64,000 nt of DNA from Deltaproteobacteria bacterium (GTDB lineage Bacteria; Desulfobacterota; Syntrophobacteria; Syntrophobacterales; Syntrophobacteraceae): assembly GCA_012517315.1 (NCBI GenBank), contig JAAYVE010000005.1, forward strand, positions 62,001 to 126,000. Reading direction: 5' to 3'. Numbering within the stretch: position 1 is the stretch's first letter; each line of letters opens with the position of its first letter. Below, piece by piece: positions 35,804 through 49,638 of the stretch. The position numbers and the translations under genes were made by a program. The notes below the pieces were generated by a model. It was not told where the DNA came from. It saw only the letters and a list, made by a program, of their open reading frames with translations, and ran no database searches.

Positions 35804-37576
35804 TCACGGTGACACCCCTTGAGGGAGCGCTTCATCATCAGGGCCGGCAAGGGCGCAGATCGCCGCACCATAGGCGTCCTTGAGGGCATTCAGATACGAT
35901 CCGTCTATTCTCCCCCGCCAGGTTTCCACCTCCAGGAAGCGCTTGGGGATCGCCACCTTGAGGGGATCGAAACCCGTCCGGAGACGTGTTCGCCATCTCA
36001 GCCTCTGCACGTGGAGGGAAACCTTTCGAAGATCGTCGGCGAGGCTGGTGTAGCCGATGGAGCGCAGGGAATCGGAGAGGACCTCCTCCCCATAAACGCC
36101 CCTTGCAAAGAGACAGCTCACCATGGAAGTCAGCAGGACCCTGGCGCGTTCGTCCTCGACCAGGAACCGGACCGCCCCGTCGACGTCGGGGTTCTGGTGT
36201 TTCTGATCGTAGGAGTAGCCTCCTGCGTCAAGATGGGAGTGGCGAAAGCCCAGCGCCTGGGAGACGAAAAACACCTCTCCCGTGGCGTAGCCCGCCATCT
36301 CCTGGCCGAGGACAGAGGCAAAGTCACCTCCCCCGTAATGGGCGGCGGCCTTCATCGTCCCCTGGGAGAGAAGCCGGTAAAAGTCGTTGGAACCTGCCCC
36401 AAGGTGGTGGATGGCTTCCCGGTAGGCGGACCCGTCGCCAAACTGGAGAGGCACGATGGTTTCCCGGGTGGAGAGGAGGCCTTTTTCGGAGGCTTCCGTG
36501 GCCCATGCCAGGGCGACCCCGGCGGACATGACATCTAGGCCCTCCCGCTCTGCCGCGTCCAGGATGGACAGTACGGAGAAGGCGTTGGTCACGTGAAGCA
36601 TGGCACCTGCAGCGAAAATTGGTTCATGGTCGTAGGAAACCTGCCGGTAGAGGTAGCGGTGCTCTTCCGTGAAGCGCTCCCGGACAAATCCCAGGTGAAT
36701 ACACCCCACCGGGCACCCGGCGCAGGCTACGTTGCGCAGCAGTGTGTCCCGGGCAAAAGCCTCCCCGGTGATACCCTCCACGCCGGCATCGCTCGTCTTC
36801 TGCAGGTTCCGGATGGGGAGAGCCTGCAGACCGTTCAGGACCGCCATGTTGATGGCCGTGCCGTAGTTGTGGTACTTCTCCATCATGTCCGTATCCGTCA
36901 TTTTGCGGTGCACGTCGGCAAAGAGTTTGGAATAGGCTTTCCCATCGGGAAGAGGAAAGGAACCGTCCCCCAGGATGACGATTCCCTTGAGGTTTTTCGC
37001 TCCCATCACCGCACCGCAGCCGAGCCTGCCGAAGTGCCGATACGTGTCCACATTGATGCAGGCCATGGGGGAAAGGTTTTCCCCCGCAGGCCCGATGCGG
37101 AGAATGCTGCGGTGTCCCGCCCCTTTGTACATGCGCCTCAGCATCTTTCCCGTCTTAAGAAGGTCCATGCCCCGGAGGAAGTGGACATCTCTTAGATCCA
37201 GGTGCCTCGATCCGATGGAGAGGCAGGAGGGCGTGGGCGCTTTCCCCCGGATCACCACTGCGTCGAAATCCGCAAACCTGAGGGAAAGGGCCGAGCGCCC
37301 ACCTGCATGGCTCTCGGCGTACTGGTCGTGGTAGGGGGATTTGAAGGCGCAAACGGTCTTGCTCATGAGAGGGAAATAGCCCGTGAGGGGACCGATGGCG
37401 AAGATGAGGGGCTGCGCGGGGTCCCCCCAGGGATGCTCCGGAAGGCCGTAACGGTCGAAAAGCATGGCCGCAAGGCCGCTCCCGCCTGCCACGATGTCCC
37501 GGCCATCGAGGCTTTCGATGGTTCCCCGTCCTGCGGCAAGGTCCACCATGAGTATCCTGAAGTGATCCCTGATCAT
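35804..37576 (-). CDS. Aldehyde:ferredoxin oxidoreductase family, tungsten pterin enzyme
   Basis: A 590-residue AOR-family oxidoreductase that would bind a bis-pterin tungsten cofactor and a 4Fe-4S cluster. The cluster ligands are CAGCPVGC (residues about 275-285) plus a later cysteine in SMVSCLFARGVY. The N-terminal domain is the usual start (RILMVDLAAG, and KSPYHDQYAESHAGG), and GRLGCGAVMGAKNLKGI is the pterin-binding segment. It overlaps the ferredoxin subunit gene by four bases. It would oxidise aldehydes or reduce acids with ferredoxin. Nearby ethanolamine ammonia-lyase makes acetaldehyde, a possible substrate, but this is inference. Confidence 0.9.
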   Translation of the reverse strand: MIRDHFRILMVDLAAGRGTIESLDGRDIVAGGSGLAAMLFDRYGLPEHPWGDPAQPLIFAIGPLTGYFPLMSKTVCAFKSPYHDQYAESHAGGRSALSLRFADFDAVVIRGKAPTPSCLSIGSRHLDLRDVHFLRGMDLLKTGKMLRRMYKGAGHRSILRIGPAGENLSPMACINVDTYRHFGRLGCGAVMGAKNLKGIVILGDGSFPLPDGKAYSKLFADVHRKMTDTDMMEKYHNYGTAINMAVLNGLQALPIRNLQKTSDAGVEGITGEAFARDTLLRNVACAGCPVGCIHLGFVRERFTEEHRYLYRQVSYDHEPIFAAGAMLHVTNAFSVLSILDAAEREGLDVMSAGVALAWATEASEKGLLSTRETIVPLQFGDGSAYREAIHHLGAGSNDFYRLLSQGTMKAAAHYGGGDFASVLGQEMAGYATGEVFFVSQALGFRHSHLDAGGYSYDQKHQNPDVDGAVRFLVEDERARVLLTSMVSCLFARGVYGEEVLSDSLRSIGYTSLADDLRKVSLHVQRLRWRTRLRTGFDPLKVAIPKRFLEVETWRGRIDGSYLNALKDAYGAAICALAGPDDEALPQGVSP

Positions 37577-38016
37577 GAGGCACTCTCCTCCCCGTCGGCG
37601 TCTGCCGCTCCGCGTTTCTCCACTTCCGCCAGCTCCAGGCAGTCGTGGGGGCAAAAGGAGACGCAGCGCCCGCAGTGGATGCATACGAAGGGCTCGCCCT
37701 TTGGATCGAGGAAGACGGCATCGACGGGGCAGGCCCTGGCGCATTCGCCGCACCGGATGCACAGGTCCTTTTTCACCACCACACCGCCGCCCTTCCGCTG
37801 GGCAAAGGCACCGGTGGGACAGGCTTCCGCGCAGGGGGCGGGGAGGCACGCCAGACAGGTCCTGGCCTCGAAACCCGTGGAAAGGCCTCCCGATGAGGAG
37901 ATCCGTATTCCGGCCGTGTCCCACGACAGCTGCCTGTGCACCAATCGGGCGCAGGCCAGGGAACAGCAGTGGCACCCGATGCACCGCTCCATTCTCGGCG
38001 CCCTGAGGATTTTCAT
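37573..38016 (-). CDS. Four-cluster ferredoxin, AOR partner subunit
   Basis: A 147-residue electron-transfer protein with four cysteine motifs: CIGCHCCSLAC, CLACLPAPCAEACP, CIRCGECARACP and CIHCGRCVSFCP. This gives probably four 4Fe-4S clusters forming a wire. The start at 38016 begins MKILRAPRMERC; a second in-frame ATG at 38031 adds five residues. It overlaps the AOR gene (ATGA), a constellation known from AOR operons with a dedicated polyferredoxin subunit. It acts in the cytoplasm and is not secreted. Confidence 0.9.
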   Translation of the reverse strand: MKILRAPRMERCIGCHCCSLACARLVHRQLSWDTAGIRISSSGGLSTGFEARTCLACLPAPCAEACPTGAFAQRKGGGVVVKKDLCIRCGECARACPVDAVFLDPKGEPFVCIHCGRCVSFCPHDCLELAEVEKRGAADADGEESAS

Positions 38017-38101
38017 GACGTGTCCCCTCAAAATCTCGACGAGGAATGTTCGAGAAGATTTGACGATTCCCCTGGATTCGTGTGGTCTTCTCTCTTAATG
38101 T

Positions 38102-40662: not shown

Positions 40663-42036
40663 TCAAAGGAGCGGCAGATCGTAGTTGAGAAAACCGCGAA
40701 CCTGATGAATTCGGTCTCCTCCCGACTCGTGAACCGTTCCGTAGCGGAACCGCAGGGAAAGGCCCTTCAGACACTTGTGCTGAAACCGGTACTGAAGGTC
40801 GGCATCGAACTCGTTCTCTTCGGGAAGGTCCTTTCTGGTGGCAGCGTTCCTGCGACCCGTGCTCACGGTGCAGAGAGCATATGCGCTGAGTCCCTCCACA
40901 AAGCGCTTGAAGTCATAGGAGAGTTTGAACATCAGGGCGTCTTCCCCGGCGCGGTTGAAGTCTCTCACCTGGCAGCTGGTGAATCCGGGGTATGAGCTCC
41001 AGGTGCTGACCATGTCCCGGTCTGCGTCGGTGCTGGTAAAGGCCGAGGTGAAAACGGTGTGGCGGTAACTGACGTCCAACGCCATCCCTCCCTGGGCGGT
41101 GTGGAAAGAAGACCCCGTGAGGCGCTCGTCCCCCACACTCCTCTGATCGGAGACCTGAGCGCTCAGGGCCAATCCCCAGTGCTCACCCAGTTTCCATCGA
41201 CGTTTGCCCTCCGCGTAGAAGATTTTGAGTGTATCCTCCGTATAATACTCAATGGCCCCGACGGATCAAGGTCCCCTGGTGTAGAGCGCCCCACCCATGA
41301 TGGTTCCCCGTTTGACGTCGGCCCCGGCGTCTTCCGACATCCACACGAATCGGTCCTGGTTGCGCTCCTTGATCTTGGAAACGTAGCCGGCCACGTATAT
41401 CAACGACCCGGTGGATTTCTCATCACCGACCATGCCGCGAAACGTGTAGCCCTCGAAGGTGTTGGGAACCATCCTGCCGTCGTTCTTGTTGATGTAAGGG
41501 TTGTCATACGTCTGGCGAAAGAAACGGAACTCATTCTCACCCCGGATCTTGATTCGACCGTATGCTTCACCCAAGACGGCAAAACCATTCTGCCCCCGTT
41601 CCAGCAGTGTGGTGCCATCCCGATCGTCCGGCGCATAGAGAGCCTGGGAAATGTAGACGGTCGCCGCAACCCCCAGGTGGTCCCAAAGCCACCCCGATTT
41701 CTACTCCACCCACCCCCCGGCTGTCCAAGCCTCCTTCTTGCTCTCGTCGAACTCCTCCTCAAAGAAGTAGGCACTGCGAACATGAAGGTTGAGTCTGGAA
41801 TCCCGCAGGAACGGAGGCGCGTCCTCATGTGCGTCTTTGAGCCGTTCCGTGACCCTTGGCCAATCCGGTTTCGGTGTGAACGAAAGCTCCAGGGGTGTGA
41901 CAATCTCCTCCACCGAAGCGGGGGGCGGCAGGGTAAGGCCCGGCTCCGACTGGGCCCATGCATCGGTGTTCAACAGGGCCAGGGCAATGATCCATGCCGT
42001 GGTTTTCAAGCAGGCGGTCGTTCTTGTTGTCTTCAC
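40663..42036 (-). pseudogene. OprD-family outer-membrane porin with two in-frame stops
   Basis: One reading frame of about 458 codons resembles an OprD-like porin throughout: signal peptide (TAWIIALALLNTDAWAQ), NLHVRSAYFFEEEFDE, NEFRFFRQTYDNPYINKNDGRM, and C-terminal SLRFRYGTVHESGGDRIHQ with a final NYDLPLL. It is broken by a TAG at 41703-41701 (after GGWVE, where relatives tend to have tyrosine, from memory) and a TGA at 41268-41266 (after YTRGP). The frame is otherwise unshifted, so the decay is recent, or the stops are read through. The start is GTG at 42036. The lost function was probably uptake of small substrates. Confidence 0.8.
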
Positions 42037-42221
42037 GGCGATCGTCCTTGTCCCTTATTTCGACGGATGTTGTTCCTGATACGTAGGGAGCCGAAACGAA
42101 GAGCATGCCCCCTCCCCCGGGGCGCTTTCACACCATAGCTCCCCACCCGGCATATCGATCAGTTCTTTTGCCGTAAATACGGAACACGCCGTCTTGGCAT
42201 CAGCCGCAAACCCTCAACCTC

Positions 42222-43781: not shown

Positions 43782-43943
43782 TCACTTGAAGGACTCCTCG
43801 ACTCTTTCCTTGTCATCGGAGGGGACGGCCCGGATGGTCACGGCCGTGACGTTCTTGATTTTTTCAGCCATGCAGCAATTACGAGCGTCTATCACTGCAG
43901 GCATTCCTTTTCTGAAAAACCGGCGAGGGTTGCATTCGTTCAT
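43782..43943 (-). CDS. Possible small coupled ORF
   Basis: A 53-residue frame (MNECNPRRFFRKGMPAVIDA...) whose ATG overlaps the EutBC stop (ATGA). A GGGGA site precedes it within the EutBC coding end. No domain is recognised. The position suggests a real cotranscribed small protein, but composition does not exclude chance. Confidence 0.35.
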   Translation of the reverse strand: MNECNPRRFFRKGMPAVIDARNCCMAEKIKNVTAVTIRAVPSDDKERVEESFK

Positions 43944-46294
43944 GCGTTCCCCAGGCGTCGGCTGCCATTGACGTTCTTCCCAACCAGTTCCCTGATGATG
44001 GTGATGGTCTCCCTGGCCGCTTCCCTCGGTGCCAGTGCCGTATCGGCGATGTTGCACACGAGTTTCGTGATATCATGATCAATCTTCTTGTCCCCCCATG
44101 TGCTGCCCCTGGTCACGGTGATGTAAACGGAATAAGAGTGGTGCATGGTCCCGGGCCGCTCACCTATGATGTGGAGCACCCCTCGAAAACCGTTGGGGTC
44201 TGCTTTTCCGAACAGCAGTTCGCCGATGCGATACCCGGCCCGGACCCTTCCGCTGGTGACGATGATGTTCTTCTCGCTCATGGGGGCGCCAGCCTCCGCA
44301 AGCAACTTCCTCACTTCATCCAGGTAGGGCGCTAGATGTCCCTCATCCATGATGGCCTTGGCGTTCAAACCGTCGGAGATGACGATCTGGCCCTTGGGAG
44401 GATTCCCACCCCACGAATCCCTGAGGCTCTCCAGGACTGCAATGGATTGAGGACTCAGTCTTTCCCCCGTTTCCGGATGAGCGATGTAGTCGTCGCGGTC
44501 CCTGGAGAGCGTGATGACCGATAATGCATTGGGGATGGTCTGTGTGAAGTCGGGGCTGAGCTCAGCCCACAGAGAGATCTTGGCGTCCTCGTAAAGAGAT
44601 TTGACCTTGGCTTCCAGCTGAGGGTTGAGGTCCCACATGTTCCTGCCGTGGCCGGTGGCAATGTCCACGCCCCTCGCCTCCACTTCCTGGATCTTCTTGC
44701 GGCCCTCGGCGAAGATTTCGTTCATGGAGCGCTTGTCGCCCCTTGCCAGGCAGTACTGATAATAAACCCAGAGGGGGTCACCCAAGTGCTCGGTGTACTG
44801 GTTGTTCGCATCCACGATGCCGATCCGCTTGTAGAATTCCCACATGGCATCGTTGACCCTGTAGCCGAACTCTTTCCTCAATCGCACATGGTCCTGGAAC
44901 GACGTGGAGAGGTAACTCAGCATGGGGTCGTTCTTTGTGGGGAGAGCGATGAGGTAGGCGGGGTTGGCCGGCATGATCTGGTCCTGGCACCAGTCCAGGT
45001 CGTCCAGAGTGACCTCCATGTGCAGCGTGGAGCAGATATCGAGGCCGATGGTCAGCCCGTGAAGCTTTCCCATGGCGATGTCTTCCAGGCAGCACCGCAC
45101 CAGTTGCTCGCGGGTCCTGAAAACTTCCGGGCCGATGAATCCGGCCACATCGTTCACATGGAGCCACGCCCCAGTGGGCTGCACCCTGGCCAGTTCCATG
45201 GCCACGGCCCTGCTGAAGCCGTACTTTCGGGATTCCAGCACCATCATGTCCACGCCGCCGGCGGCGCCGTTGGTGAACTCGGACCCCTGGCCGGTCTCGA
45301 AATAGAGCCCGTAGCGTTCCCCCCTCTTGGATTCCGCATATTTCAGGATCTTCTCGACCGTCACGTCGAAGGTCTTGTTGCAGTCATCCGTTCCAGCCAG
45401 GCTCTGAAACATGGTGGCAACCGATCCCGGGTAGGCCTTGCCGACCTCCGCCTGGACGTCAATGTGGGAAAGAACGCACCAGGGAATGATGTCCTGCAGC
45501 TGGAACGTGTCGACCACGTCTTTGAGGGCTTCCTGCACGGCAGCCACACTCTTCACCTGGCTGTCCACCGGGTTGGTCCCGATGACGATGTCCCCCGTTG
45601 CATAGGAAAAGGCGTCAAAGACCTGCCAGACCACGTCTTCGGGATGGTCCGTCGGGGAGTTGGGCTGAATGCGGGCGCCCATGTAGCCTTTGGCCCCCAT
45701 GTTGGTGCCCGGCAGGGGGTTGAAGATCTTCTGGCCGATGGCGATGAGCTCCTCATTGGTCATGAGCTTGGGGACGCATCCAATGGTCTCACTGGTCAGG
45801 CCGGCCATGACGCCCTTGATTGCGGTTTCGGGCTGGGTCAGAAGAAATGTTTTAAACTGCCCCATGGTCCAGTCCTTGACCGTCTCGTAGCCGTCGCGGT
45901 CCGTGGTCTTCCAGATCAACTTCTGCAAGTCGTCTTCCAGGAGCGGATGCACGAACAGGTCCTTGATCTTCGTGTTGGAAAGAAGCGCTCTGGCGTTCTG
46001 CCGAGTCGCCTCATCCTTTGCGCCGACACCGATAGCAACATCGCCCTCCTTGAATGCGTTGGCGGCGCCGATCACCTGCCGATAGAGCGTCTGATCGAAG
46101 CGCCCCTTGATTCTCGCGACATATGCGAAGACGTCCTCCCCCTCCTTGACCTCCCGGATGGCGATGACCTCTCTGGCGAGGGACTCGGCGGCCACTGCAA
46201 CGCCGGCCAGGGTGGCCCCGGCAGCACCCATCATCGCAAGAAAGGCTCGGCGGGGAATCCCTTTGTGAGCACAAGAGCGCCGGTTGTTTTCCAT
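43940..46294 (-). CDS. eutBC: Fused ethanolamine ammonia-lyase EutB-EutC with Tat signal
   Basis: A 784-residue B12-dependent enzyme that converts ethanolamine to acetaldehyde and ammonia. The large and small subunits, normally separate genes, are joined. Residues 1-40 form a Tat signal: the twin arginines of IPRRAFLAMMG (residues 15-16), then GAAGATLAGVAVAAES. EutB follows with GARIQPNSPTDHPED (near 210), FETGQGSEFTN (near 330) and GLDICSTLH (near 417), where catalytic Arg, Glu and Asp lie in EutB. EutC follows with VISDGLNAKAI (near 638) and IIGERPG (near 712). AAGGAG precedes the ATG. Both halves look intact. ackA and pta lie immediately upstream. Confidence 0.9.
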   Translation of the reverse strand: MENNRRSCAHKGIPRRAFLAMMGAAGATLAGVAVAAESLAREVIAIREVKEGEDVFAYVARIKGRFDQTLYRQVIGAANAFKEGDVAIGVGAKDEATRQNARALLSNTKIKDLFVHPLLEDDLQKLIWKTTDRDGYETVKDWTMGQFKTFLLTQPETAIKGVMAGLTSETIGCVPKLMTNEELIAIGQKIFNPLPGTNMGAKGYMGARIQPNSPTDHPEDVVWQVFDAFSYATGDIVIGTNPVDSQVKSVAAVQEALKDVVDTFQLQDIIPWCVLSHIDVQAEVGKAYPGSVATMFQSLAGTDDCNKTFDVTVEKILKYAESKRGERYGLYFETGQGSEFTNGAAGGVDMMVLESRKYGFSRAVAMELARVQPTGAWLHVNDVAGFIGPEVFRTREQLVRCCLEDIAMGKLHGLTIGLDICSTLHMEVTLDDLDWCQDQIMPANPAYLIALPTKNDPMLSYLSTSFQDHVRLRKEFGYRVNDAMWEFYKRIGIVDANNQYTEHLGDPLWVYYQYCLARGDKRSMNEIFAEGRKKIQEVEARGVDIATGHGRNMWDLNPQLEAKVKSLYEDAKISLWAELSPDFTQTIPNALSVITLSRDRDDYIAHPETGERLSPQSIAVLESLRDSWGGNPPKGQIVISDGLNAKAIMDEGHLAPYLDEVRKLLAEAGAPMSEKNIIVTSGRVRAGYRIGELLFGKADPNGFRGVLHIIGERPGTMHHSYSVYITVTRGSTWGDKKIDHDITKLVCNIADTALAPREAARETITIIRELVGKNVNGSRRLGNA

Positions 46295-46306
46295 GACTCC
46301 TTCCTT

Positions 46307-47539
46307 TCAAATGATCCCGTTCTTTGACAGATTCGACTTTTCGATGGTGCGGATGGTCTGCCGCGCGATTTCCAGTTCCTCGTCCGTCCGGACCACGAGG
46401 ACCCTGACGGGCGCACGGTCTTTCTGGATTTCCGCGACCGTCCCCGACACCGCTTCGTTTCTTGCACCATCGACGGCGATTCCCAGGTGTTCCAGCCCCT
46501 CGCATACACGCGCCCAGATGAACGTTGCGTTCTCACCGATACCGCCGGTGAAGATGACGGCATCGACACGGCCAAGCACCGCAGTGTAGGCGCCGATGTA
46601 CTTCTTGACCCGGTAGCAGAACATCTCGATGGCGAGGCCGGCCTGGGCATCACCTTCCTCGGCACAGCGCTGGATCTCCCGCATGTCGTTTAGGCCGCAA
46701 ATCCCCTTGTGGCCGCTCTCCTTGTTGAGGATCTCTTCCATGGCCTCGAAGGTCATGCCCGTCTTTCTGGCAAGATAGAAGTGAACGGCGGGGTCGAGGT
46801 CTCCGCAGCGCGTCCCCATGATCAGTCCCTCCAGGGGCGTGAGCCCCATGGACGTGTCGGCGCTCTTCCCACCCCGCACGGCAATGGCGCTGGCACCGTT
46901 TCCGAAATGCAGGGTGATCAGGTTGAGCTGGTCCAACGGAATCCCCAGGTGGTTCGATGCCTCCTGTGTGACGTATTGATGCGACGTCCCATGGAAACCG
47001 TAGCGACGCACATGATGCAGGCGGTGCAGTTCATGGGGCAGCGCATAGTGAAAGGCTTTGGGCGGCATGCTCTGGTGAAACGCCGTGTCGAAAACCGCCA
47101 CGTTGGGAACGTCCGGGCGCAGCTTGCGAAGGGCCTCAATGCCGGCCACGTTGGGAGGGTTGTGCAGTGGGGCAAGGGGGATCAGGTCCTTGATCCTGCA
47201 TATCACGTCCTCATCGACGATCACCGGCTCGCGGAATGCCTCCCCCCCGTGGACGACACGATGTCCGAAACCAAAAAATGCTCCGGGGGCAACACGAGTG
47301 GTGGGATAGCGCTCCGCCACATCGAGAAGGTACTGGAAGCCTTCATAGTGGTCGGCGATTGGTCGCGTTTCGACGATATCCTCCCAGCTTTCCGAATCGG
47401 TCAGCCATCGCCGCCGGAACCCCGCCTCACGCGTCCCGATCCTTTCGAGCGACCCCTGCACCACGGAGGTGCAGCCATCCAGGGCGAAGACCTCGTACTT
47501 GATGGAGGAACTGCCGGCATTGACGACCACGACCCTCAT
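46307..47539 (-). CDS. ackA: Acetate kinase
   Basis: A 410-residue cytoplasmic enzyme that converts acetyl phosphate and ADP to acetate and ATP. VVVNAGSSSIKYEVF opens the protein. GHRVVHGGE, FDTAFHQSMP, GFHGTSHQYV and HFGNGASAIAV follow, together with the C-terminal IFTGGIGENA. The ATG at 47539 overlaps the pta stop (ATGA), and GAGGAG lies inside the end of pta. It completes acetyl-CoA to acetate with pta. It is 12 bases upstream of the EutBC gene, so acetate formation and ethanolamine breakdown share an operon. Confidence 0.97.
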   Translation of the reverse strand: MRVVVVNAGSSSIKYEVFALDGCTSVVQGSLERIGTREAGFRRRWLTDSESWEDIVETRPIADHYEGFQYLLDVAERYPTTRVAPGAFFGFGHRVVHGGEAFREPVIVDEDVICRIKDLIPLAPLHNPPNVAGIEALRKLRPDVPNVAVFDTAFHQSMPPKAFHYALPHELHRLHHVRRYGFHGTSHQYVTQEASNHLGIPLDQLNLITLHFGNGASAIAVRGGKSADTSMGLTPLEGLIMGTRCGDLDPAVHFYLARKTGMTFEAMEEILNKESGHKGICGLNDMREIQRCAEEGDAQAGLAIEMFCYRVKKYIGAYTAVLGRVDAVIFTGGIGENATFIWARVCEGLEHLGIAVDGARNEAVSGTVAEIQKDRAPVRVLVVRTDEELEIARQTIRTIEKSNLSKNGII

Positions 47540-49638
47540 GAAGCCGCTCCTCGTTCTATCTGTGCCTGGATGGCGGTGATGGCGACGGTGTTGACGATAT
47601 CGGTCACGGTGCATCCGCGGCTCAGGTCGTTGAGCGGTTTGTTGAGTCCCTGGAGCACCGGCCCTATGGCGACGGCCCCTGCAGCGCGCTGGACCGCCTT
47701 GTAGGCGTTGTTGCCGGCGTTCAGGTCCGGGAAGATGAACACGTTCGCATGGCCCGCAACCACACTGTGGGGCAGTTTCACCTTCGCCACGTCCGGATCG
47801 ATGGCGGCATCATATTGAATGGGTCCCTCAAGCTTCAGTTCCGGACGGATTTCTTTGGCGATGCGGGTCGCATCCTTCACCTTGTCCACATCGGCCCCCT
47901 TGCCGGACTCGCCCGTGGAGTAAGACAGCATGGCGACTCGAGGCTCAATTCCGAAACTTTGGGCGGTTTCGGCCGAGCTGACGGCGATGTGGGCCAGCTG
48001 CTCCGCATTGGGGTCGGGGTTGATGGCGCAGTCCCCGTAAACCAGCACTTGGTCGGGAAGGCATATGAAGAAGACGCTGGAGACGATAGGACTCCCCGGC
48101 CTGGTGCGGATGATTTCCAGGGCGGGGCGGATCGTCTGCTGCGTCGTGTGGACCGCCCCGGAAACCATGCCGTCGGCGATCCCACGGTGGACCATCATGG
48201 TGCCGAAGGTGCTCACATCGGTCATGGCGTCCATGGCCATTTGCTCCGAGACGCCCTTGTTCTTGCGCAGTTCGTGGTAGGTCCGCCCCAAGTCCTCGCG
48301 GAGCTCCGAGCGGAGGGGATCGATGATGGGGAGTTCGCCCAGAGAGAGCCCGAGAGCCGCGATTTTCGCCTGGATCTCGCGAGGGTCCCCGAGGAGCGTA
48401 ATGTCCACCACATCCCGCAGGTGCAGGATCTCGGCGGCCCTGAGAACCCGTTCCTCCGTTCCTTCGGGGAGCACGATGCGCTGACGCATCCCGCGCGCAC
48501 GCCCGATGAGGTCGTGCTGAAACATGAGCGGCGTCACACGGGAGGATCGCAGGACGTCGATGCGGCCCTCGAGCCGCTCCAGGTCCACGTTGGTTTCGAA
48601 GACCCCCAGGGCTCCGGCGATCTTCCTCCGGGTTTCCGGCGCGATTTCGGCGCGCACCGCATGCACCGCCGTGGCCGTCAGAAACGTGTCGGTCCCAACG
48701 GAAAGGATGGGCACTGGGGAGTGCCTGAGCCCTTCGATGAGTCGCGTCACCTGCGCCGCCGGCTTGAGGCCCCCTGTGAGCATGAGGCCGGCGACTCCGG
48801 GATACGTCGCCGAGGCATCGGCCAGAAGGGTCCCCAACACGAGGTCCGAACGGTCACCCGGCGTGATGACGAGGCTTCCCTCCTCGAGGTGGTCGAGGAA
48901 GTTGGGGAGCTCCATGGCCGCGACCTTGGTGTGCAGCACCTCCCCGTCCAGCCGATCCATGCTGCCGTGGAGCAGTTGGGCCCCGAGGGCTCGCATGATC
49001 TCGCCCACCGTGGGTTTGTCGAGGAGCGGGTGCGCCGGCAGGACGAACACGGGAGTCCCGGCCCGGACGTCCTCCTGGAAAAATGCACTCGCCCTAGCAG
49101 CCGAATCGGGAGCAACCCGGTTGACGATCAGCGCGAGGACATCGCACTTTTTGGACTCCAGGAATTCCGCCAGCGCGCCTGCTGCGTCCACCACCTCGAC
49201 GACCGTCCTGTCCTGCCCGGCCACAACGGGGAGGAGAGGCGCGCCAAGGTCCCGGGCGATGTCCACGTTGCGCTCGAACTCGACGGCCGTGCTGATGCCT
49301 CTGTAATCCCTGCCCACGCAAACCACAAAATCACATTCCCGGGCCAGCTCCCGGAATTTCTCGAGGATTACGCCGTGCAGCTCGTCTTCCCTGCCTCTGG
49401 AAATCAGGTCCCGCGCCCTGTCGATGGTGACGCCATGCATCGTGTCACGGGAGCCTGTGATGCCACAATGGCTCAAGGCGAGAGCCGTCAAGGAATCGGG
49501 ATGGGTTGTTTCCTTGATGACGGGGCGAAAAAAACCCACCTTTCGACCATGCCGGGCCAGGAGCTCCATCATGCCGAGCACGACGACGGATTTTCCGCTT
49601 CCCGGCCCAGTCCCTGCAATGTAAACGCTCCTTGACAT
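47536..49638 (-). CDS. pta: Phosphate acetyltransferase (long form)
   Basis: A 700-residue enzyme that converts acetyl-CoA and phosphate to acetyl phosphate. The N-terminal BioD-like domain has the P-loop GTGPGSGKSVVVLGM. A DRTGG-type middle domain covers roughly residues 220-330, and the C-terminal phosphotransacetylase domain roughly 370-700. That last domain carries SYSTGESGKGADVDKV and FPDLNAGNNAYKAVQRAAGA. The length fits the long, regulated form rather than the 330-residue type. It is first of the pta-ackA-eutBC run. The ATG at 49638 begins MSRSVYIAGTGPGSGK. It works in the cytoplasm. Confidence 0.95.
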   Translation of the reverse strand: MSRSVYIAGTGPGSGKSVVVLGMMELLARHGRKVGFFRPVIKETTHPDSLTALALSHCGITGSRDTMHGVTIDRARDLISRGREDELHGVILEKFRELARECDFVVCVGRDYRGISTAVEFERNVDIARDLGAPLLPVVAGQDRTVVEVVDAAGALAEFLESKKCDVLALIVNRVAPDSAARASAFFQEDVRAGTPVFVLPAHPLLDKPTVGEIMRALGAQLLHGSMDRLDGEVLHTKVAAMELPNFLDHLEEGSLVITPGDRSDLVLGTLLADASATYPGVAGLMLTGGLKPAAQVTRLIEGLRHSPVPILSVGTDTFLTATAVHAVRAEIAPETRRKIAGALGVFETNVDLERLEGRIDVLRSSRVTPLMFQHDLIGRARGMRQRIVLPEGTEERVLRAAEILHLRDVVDITLLGDPREIQAKIAALGLSLGELPIIDPLRSELREDLGRTYHELRKNKGVSEQMAMDAMTDVSTFGTMMVHRGIADGMVSGAVHTTQQTIRPALEIIRTRPGSPIVSSVFFICLPDQVLVYGDCAINPDPNAEQLAHIAVSSAETAQSFGIEPRVAMLSYSTGESGKGADVDKVKDATRIAKEIRPELKLEGPIQYDAAIDPDVAKVKLPHSVVAGHANVFIFPDLNAGNNAYKAVQRAAGAVAIGPVLQGLNKPLNDLSRGCTVTDIVNTVAITAIQAQIERGAAS

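Follow-up and report, generated by a model that had tools for sequence, protein, structure and literature searches.

A gene from a Deltaproteobacteria bacterium encodes both subunits of ethanolamine ammonia-lyase in one frame behind a signal-type leader, and the leader is kept in almost every member of the family. Judging from these sequences, the product is probably an exported ethanolamine ammonia-lyase, cleaved or anchored, that acts outside the inner membrane, probably in the periplasm. The gene lies in the stretch of 64,000 nucleotides analyzed here (the window). An earlier note on this DNA had reported the leader-bearing fusion, and that observation is confirmed as described; its interpretation is partly supported. 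The relevant features, with their basis, are as follows.

43940..46294, minus strand: eutBC, leader, EutB, and EutC in one frame (frame and domain matches)
46169..46294, minus strand: leader, residues 1-42, RR at 15-16 (sequence, low model confidence at 1-40, leaders of relatives)
44789..46084, minus strand: EutB domain, residues 71-502, with every key active-site residue conserved (Pfam, residue check, fold)
43964..44662, minus strand: EutC domain, residues 545-777, with conserved DGL and GERPG motifs (Pfam, alignment, fold)
46295..46308, minus strand: ribosome-binding site GAAAGGAAGGAGTC, preceding the ATG of the leader (sequence)
46307..47539, minus strand: ackA, acetate kinase (start set by the TIGR00016 match, at residue 26 of a longer frame)
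47536..49638, minus strand: pta, phosphate acetyltransferase, adjoining ackA on its upstream side (ORF and profile match)
~35804..37714, minus strand: aldehyde ferredoxin oxidoreductase (AOR), AFOR_N and AFOR_C (domain matches)
37573..38031, minus strand: 4Fe-4S protein adjoining the AOR gene (domain matches)

Ethanolamine ammonia-lyase needs adenosylcobalamin and is normally a cytoplasmic enzyme of two separate subunits. In the window, an uninterrupted frame of 784 amino acids contains the leader, EutB, and EutC, and both domains exceed their Pfam gathering scores (EutB, E 7e-143, 477 bits against a cut-off of 25; EutC, E 5e-31, 108 bits against 25.8), which bears out the claim that they are complete in one frame. 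The NCBIfam EutB model PRK15067 matches above its cut-off (635 versus 554 bits); the EutC part is divergent, since the NCBIfam EutC match falls under its own (78 versus 230 bits). The catalytic-region motifs announced in the note are present. Residues K127, R160, Q162, N193, Q246, F258, E287, V326, F329, D362, and L402 (E. coli EutB numbering) are invariant in 52/52 fused sequences, whose EutB parts have a mean identity of 31% to that of E. coli; R160, Q162, N193, E287, D362, and others are what we take to be the substrate and radical-transfer residues. EutC keeps DGL, RV, and GERPG in an alignment regrouped by identity. Structure prediction, proposed as a check, yielded ordinary EutB and EutC folds: the AlphaFold model, built from a 35-sequence alignment (mean pLDDT 82; residues 1-40 below 50), matches E. 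coli EutB (3abo_A) with Z 40 over 433 residues and E. coli EutC (7xrm_B) with Z 22 over 231 residues, the nearest solved structures being the Listeria and E. coli EutB proteins and E. coli EutC. Domains, residues, and predicted fold would all place the protein among the ethanolamine ammonia-lyases. Both domains are under purifying selection, with dN/dS of about 0.1 in EutB and about 0.07-0.18 in EutC; the leader changes faster, with a dN/dS of roughly 0.2-0.5 where defined.

The leader reads MENNRRSCAHKGIPRRAFLAMMGAAGATLAGVAVAAESLA and agrees with the proposal of a twin-arginine signal followed by a hydrophobic stretch. After RR, it continues AFLAMMGAAGATLAGVAVAA, and PRRAFL (residues 14-19) is followed by 20 uncharged residues. 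Judged by eye, cleavage is likely near residues 35-40 (AVA/AES or SLA/R). The genome encodes TatC (E 6e-74). The TIGR01409 Tat model gives the window leader 10.6 against a cut-off of 16.7 (17.5 for the relative L015 and 16.0 for L002), which counts against an exported lyase. The strong ribosome-binding site lies directly 5' of the leader ATG, an in-frame stop lies 4 codons upstream, and the next Met codons (21 and 22) fall within the hydrophobic stretch, for which reason we regard the leader ATG as the natural start. Taken together with leader conservation, the ribosome-binding site and the upstream stop rule out a start-codon error and contradict the possibility, raised in the note, that translation begins at a downstream methionine and leaves RR untranslated. 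A role of the leader as a microcompartment encapsulation peptide was also considered and was ruled out, the genome being without shell genes.

Across the family, a leader is present in 50 of 51 members, the window protein included, versus none of 28 ordinary EutBs (29 rows, one a repeat). Similarly, the hydrophobicity of an N-terminal 12-mer exceeds 1.6 in 49/51 members versus 0/28 ordinary EutBs, a contrast that chance does not account for, the two members under this value being L021 (RR motif, 1.44) and L025, which has no leader. L025 (5918-8072, 63% identical) starts MSKQRSKTGFDQ and adjoins a LysR regulator; either export was lost here or an ancestral cytoplasmic state has persisted. L025 counts against the exported-lyase reading. 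The twin-arginine pattern occurs in 38/51 members, one of which (L061) looks by eye to be of Sec type; a further 12 members carry Sec-type leaders. Most leaders carry a positive N-terminal charge ahead of the hydrophobic part. The last residues of Sec-type leaders form an A-x-A-like site immediately ahead of the conserved [VI]xIxxVxxGEDVFAY, and Tat-type leaders stop at the same place. In a quick maximum-likelihood tree, all leader-bearing fusions and L025 form one clade (support 100), within which the starred branches require the Tat-type members to fall into two distinct groups. That the type of leader has switched while its presence has been kept is the best indication of selection for export. 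The note had inferred that Tat exports the fusion after cofactor loading in the cytoplasm, or that the signal anchors it. As a general rule, loading before Tat export fails, because the Sec-type leaders of close relatives imply unfolded export and loading outside; the conserved trait would be export, and not Tat pre-loading, since relatives swap Tat for Sec. Neither an exported ethanolamine ammonia-lyase nor a clade-wide export leader is described in the open-licence literature searched, and nothing relevant on exported adenosylcobalamin enzymes was found in it; within that scope, the novelty lies in an export leader shared across the clade.

A scan of GTDB contigs identified 40 relatives that are 54-81% identical to the window protein. 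They occur in MAGs of Thermodesulfobacteriota and further "delta" groups, in a single MAG each of Acidobacteria and Verrucomicrobia, and in numerous rhizobia (Sinorhizobium, Ensifer, Rhizobium, Mesorhizobium, Bradyrhizobium, Phyllobacterium, and Microvirga), and megaplasmids of S. meliloti and S. fredii also encode fused eutBC. In the window's phylum, EutB was found in 34 of 395 sampled genomes, 17 of which, by score and frame length, carry the fused type. In the rhizobial order, 99/347 genomes have EutB, with only three clear fused-type copies, including one from the genome chosen as the centre of the sample. Fused eutBC was not found in the one sampled genus mate of the window genome. The patchy spread and the 71-76% identity across phyla suggest that the gene has been transferred between phyla.

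As the note had stated, pta and ackA lie immediately upstream in the order pta-ackA-eutBC, with eutBC beginning 12 bp after the end of ackA; the three genes probably form one operon. This pair does not define the arrangement, contrary to what had been supposed, because relatives do not keep it next to eutBC: proximity recurs only loosely in the neighbor comparison (L009 and L022), and in two rhizobia the pair lies within 4-5 kb. The lack of conservation of this partner counts against the exported-lyase reading. The "AOR pair" placed about 6 kb downstream is found at a distance of 6.2 kb on that side, likewise on the minus strand, and consists of one AOR gene plus the 4Fe-4S protein. AOR is a possible enzyme downstream of eutBC, a link that we infer, and this neighborhood recurs in relatives, AOR adjoining eutBC in the Sec-type copies L023 and L064-L069. 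A Gcw_chp/TorF-like porin adjoins the Tat-clade copies L034 and L024 as well as Sec-type copies. In the window, an OprD-family porin gene (40663-42106, minus strand), between pyruvate kinase and glucokinase, appears to be split over several frames and is either a frameshifted gene or a draft error. No riboswitch was found near the window gene. Rhizobial eutBC genes have adhP and phosphoketolase nearby; on S. meliloti pSymA (L071:2197-14220), adhP, phosphoketolase, a histidine phosphatase, a large glycan enzyme, a glucoamylase-family protein, and eutBC lie together. We know of no role for an exported EutBC in that cluster.

Where Sec-type loci were read at length, a conserved operon comprises an SBP_bac_6 binding protein, the Gcw_chp/TorF-like porin, eutBC, and a multispanning (multi-TM) protein, followed by an ABC ATPase, Peripla_BP_2, a FecCD permease, a MoxR AAA protein, and DUF58/VWA; it is seen at L139:5164-16994 and also in L138, L137, and L134. 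The best models for the transporter genes are the corrinoid ATPase and BtuC, both under cut-off. The multi-TM protein (~260 amino acids, L139:9725-10507) has no Pfam or NCBIfam match and occurs, by our grouping, in 12/13 Sec-type genomes, 0/20 Tat-type genomes, and 0/12 others. In L135 (13089-13273, minus strand), a cobalamin riboswitch (115 bits) lies just downstream of eutBC1 and the multi-TM gene, ahead of cobalamin genes. The operon may stand in for EutA by delivering or repairing the cofactor. A broader proposal, which we hold only tentatively, is a dedicated extracytoplasmic adenosylcobalamin lyase system whose cofactor would be delivered and renewed outside and which would have spread between phyla by transfer; its detail for the Sec-type clade, that the corrinoid-type ABC transporter and MoxR/VWA proteins substitute for EutA, is equally speculative.

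The Sec-type copies also connect the family to a cultured organism. The fusion as such is not new: a 2012 description covers it in Pelobacter carbinolicus as eutBC1 and eutBC2 (Pcar_0491 and Pcar_0467), according to the sections consulted of PMC3543383, which report that strains of this species grow by splitting ethanolamine and which propose uptake through neighboring genes. Those sections make no mention of a leader or of export of the enzyme. Genome G915 fits P. carbinolicus, from which we infer the species name. It contains two fused eutBC copies, 70.8% identical and 28.6 kb apart, with cobalamin-type genes between them (named by eye), and each copy begins with a leader of Sec type (MRLRSKFLYGITFGLALTFVASLAGA and MLQKGKFVAGITGALVMTFLASMAGA). 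A search of the G915 genome found no other EutB. If G915 is P. carbinolicus, the reported growth on ethanolamine seems to rest on leader-bearing enzymes.

Adenosylcobalamin radical enzymes are regarded as cytoplasmic, the cofactor being made and repaired there with ATP. EutA and EutT take part in this ATP-dependent making and repair (PMC5821096). That the cofactor is made and adenosylated inside, with no ATP outside for repair, counts against the exported-lyase reading, as does the absence of EutA from the window's genome, where we found only a weak partial match (positions 139-265 of a 417-amino-acid frame; 24 bits versus a cut-off of 27). The Acinetobacter baumannii enzyme functions without EutA (PMC9426561). 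Among the genomes searched, full-length EutA occurs only in G253 and G162; other matches are weak, partial, and confined to the ATPase core, probably FtsA-like proteins, and were not counted. In G253, the full-length EutA (L085, contig C175) coexists with a Sec-type fusion, the only EutB match of that genome, on another contig. The window's genome encodes CobS. No PF00936 match was found in it, control genomes with shells being positive, in agreement with the note's claim of an arrangement without a microcompartment. Nor did any ethanolamine permease score above cut-off in this genome. TIGR00908 matches of at least 340 bits occur in 1/29 fused-type genomes versus 6/18 others, a difference that is suggestive only; most TIGR00908 matches are general amino-acid permeases and not ethanolamine permeases.

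In the pathway that we favor, fused EutBC would cross the inner membrane by means of its N-terminal signal, of Tat type in the window, and, with ordinary EutB and EutC folds and bound adenosylcobalamin, cleaved or anchored, would convert ethanolamine to acetaldehyde and ammonia on the outward-facing side of the inner membrane. The two products may diffuse back into the cell, where acetaldehyde would be oxidized by AOR or reduced by alcohol dehydrogenase (AdhP), and acetate or acetyl-phosphate would be handled by Pta-AckA. Tat could export the enzyme already loaded and Sec could not; since Sec exports unfolded proteins, Sec-type members would have to be loaded outside, perhaps by the neighboring corrinoid-type transporter and MoxR/VWA proteins. 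Export, cofactor loading, activity, substrate, and acetaldehyde fate are all proposed here from sequence comparison. In favor of this pathway are the near-universal leader, the Tat/Sec switching, and the common end point of both leader types ahead of the mature start, the invariant catalytic residues, low dN/dS, and fold match, the presence of TatC and CobS in a genome without a shell, the porin and AOR neighbors, and the fact that the only two EutBs of G915 are leader-bearing, P. carbinolicus strains being reported to grow on ethanolamine (PMC3543383).

A protein that is exported but no longer an ethanolamine lyase, such as one that binds or senses cobamides or that acts as a lyase on another small amino alcohol, is unlikely. 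The stem of the leader-bearing clade is long (3.58 changes per column), and 35 EutB columns are fixed differently in the fused and ordinary groups, against 78 shared at >=90% in both. The stem and these columns leave room for altered chemistry, and the rhizobial neighbors are sugar-phosphate and glucan enzymes, not eut genes. However, the substrate and radical-transfer residues tested are all invariant, dN/dS is low in both domains, and AOR and AdhP neighbors suit an aldehyde product. P. carbinolicus can be read both ways, with two copies for which the authors had the idea of an ethanolamine/choline split (PMC3543383, sections consulted), but, as G915, with no other EutB. We give rather little credence to an uncleaved leader that serves as an inner-membrane anchor, leaving the enzyme membrane-bound on the periplasmic or, less likely, the cytoplasmic side: any signal may remain uncleaved, and the leaderless A. 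baumannii enzyme was seen at the cell membrane (PMC9426561), but the A-x-A-like sites of Sec-type leaders lie just before the conserved mature start, and the N-terminal charge of most leaders predicts that the enzyme body is outside. Finally, a leader artefact (wrong start, assembly fusion, or sequencing error) on an ordinary cytoplasmic enzyme is hardly credible, since, although the source is a 61-contig draft, the same fusion and leader recur independently in dozens of assemblies, including named isolates and complete plasmids, contradicting the note's alternative of leaderless homologues and an artefactual fusion, and the start is marked by its ribosome-binding site and upstream stop.

If the exported-lyase reading is true, a radical enzyme dependent on B12 acquires its cofactor and stays active outside the cytoplasm, and a reaction regarded as confined to the cell interior may proceed beyond the inner membrane, in a clade to which all enzymes of this kind in one cultured ethanolamine fermenter seem to belong. 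It would constitute a third way of handling acetaldehyde, besides microcompartments and tolerance, and it would explain the missing EutA and the lack of a clear ethanolamine permease beside eutBC genes.

Ordinary EutBC (E. coli, Salmonella, and Listeria) has the same domains, active-site residues, and predicted fold as the window protein, whereas it consists of two subunits without an export leader, usually with EutA and often with a microcompartment, and its EutB is about 31% identical. The A. baumannii system resembles that of the window in using ethanolamine without a shell and without EutA, but has two ordinary subunits, no predicted signal, and no fusion (PMC9426561). Leaderless EutB-EutC fusions of ~705 amino acids occur outside the exported clade (L053-L055, in G221, G264, and G149); these and the fusion on a Methylocystis plasmid join EutB and EutC in one frame and are 28-30% identical to the window protein. 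Reductive dehalogenases (RdhA/PceA) are cobamide enzymes exported with a Tat signal and offer a precedent, although their fold and chemistry differ and their cobamide is not adenosylcobalamin in a radical mechanism. In P. carbinolicus, the leader is of Sec type, whereas that of the window is Tat, pta-ackA do not adjoin, and the operon includes a binding protein, a multi-TM protein, a corrinoid-type transporter, and MoxR/VWA proteins, none of which are in the window. Its eutBC1 is nonetheless ~62% identical to the window protein (G915 copy), identity and the neighbors found also at the tree's Sec-type loci place its copies in the same clade, and the two systems have in common the EutB-EutC fusion, AOR in the cluster, the lack of eutA, and a signal-type leader.
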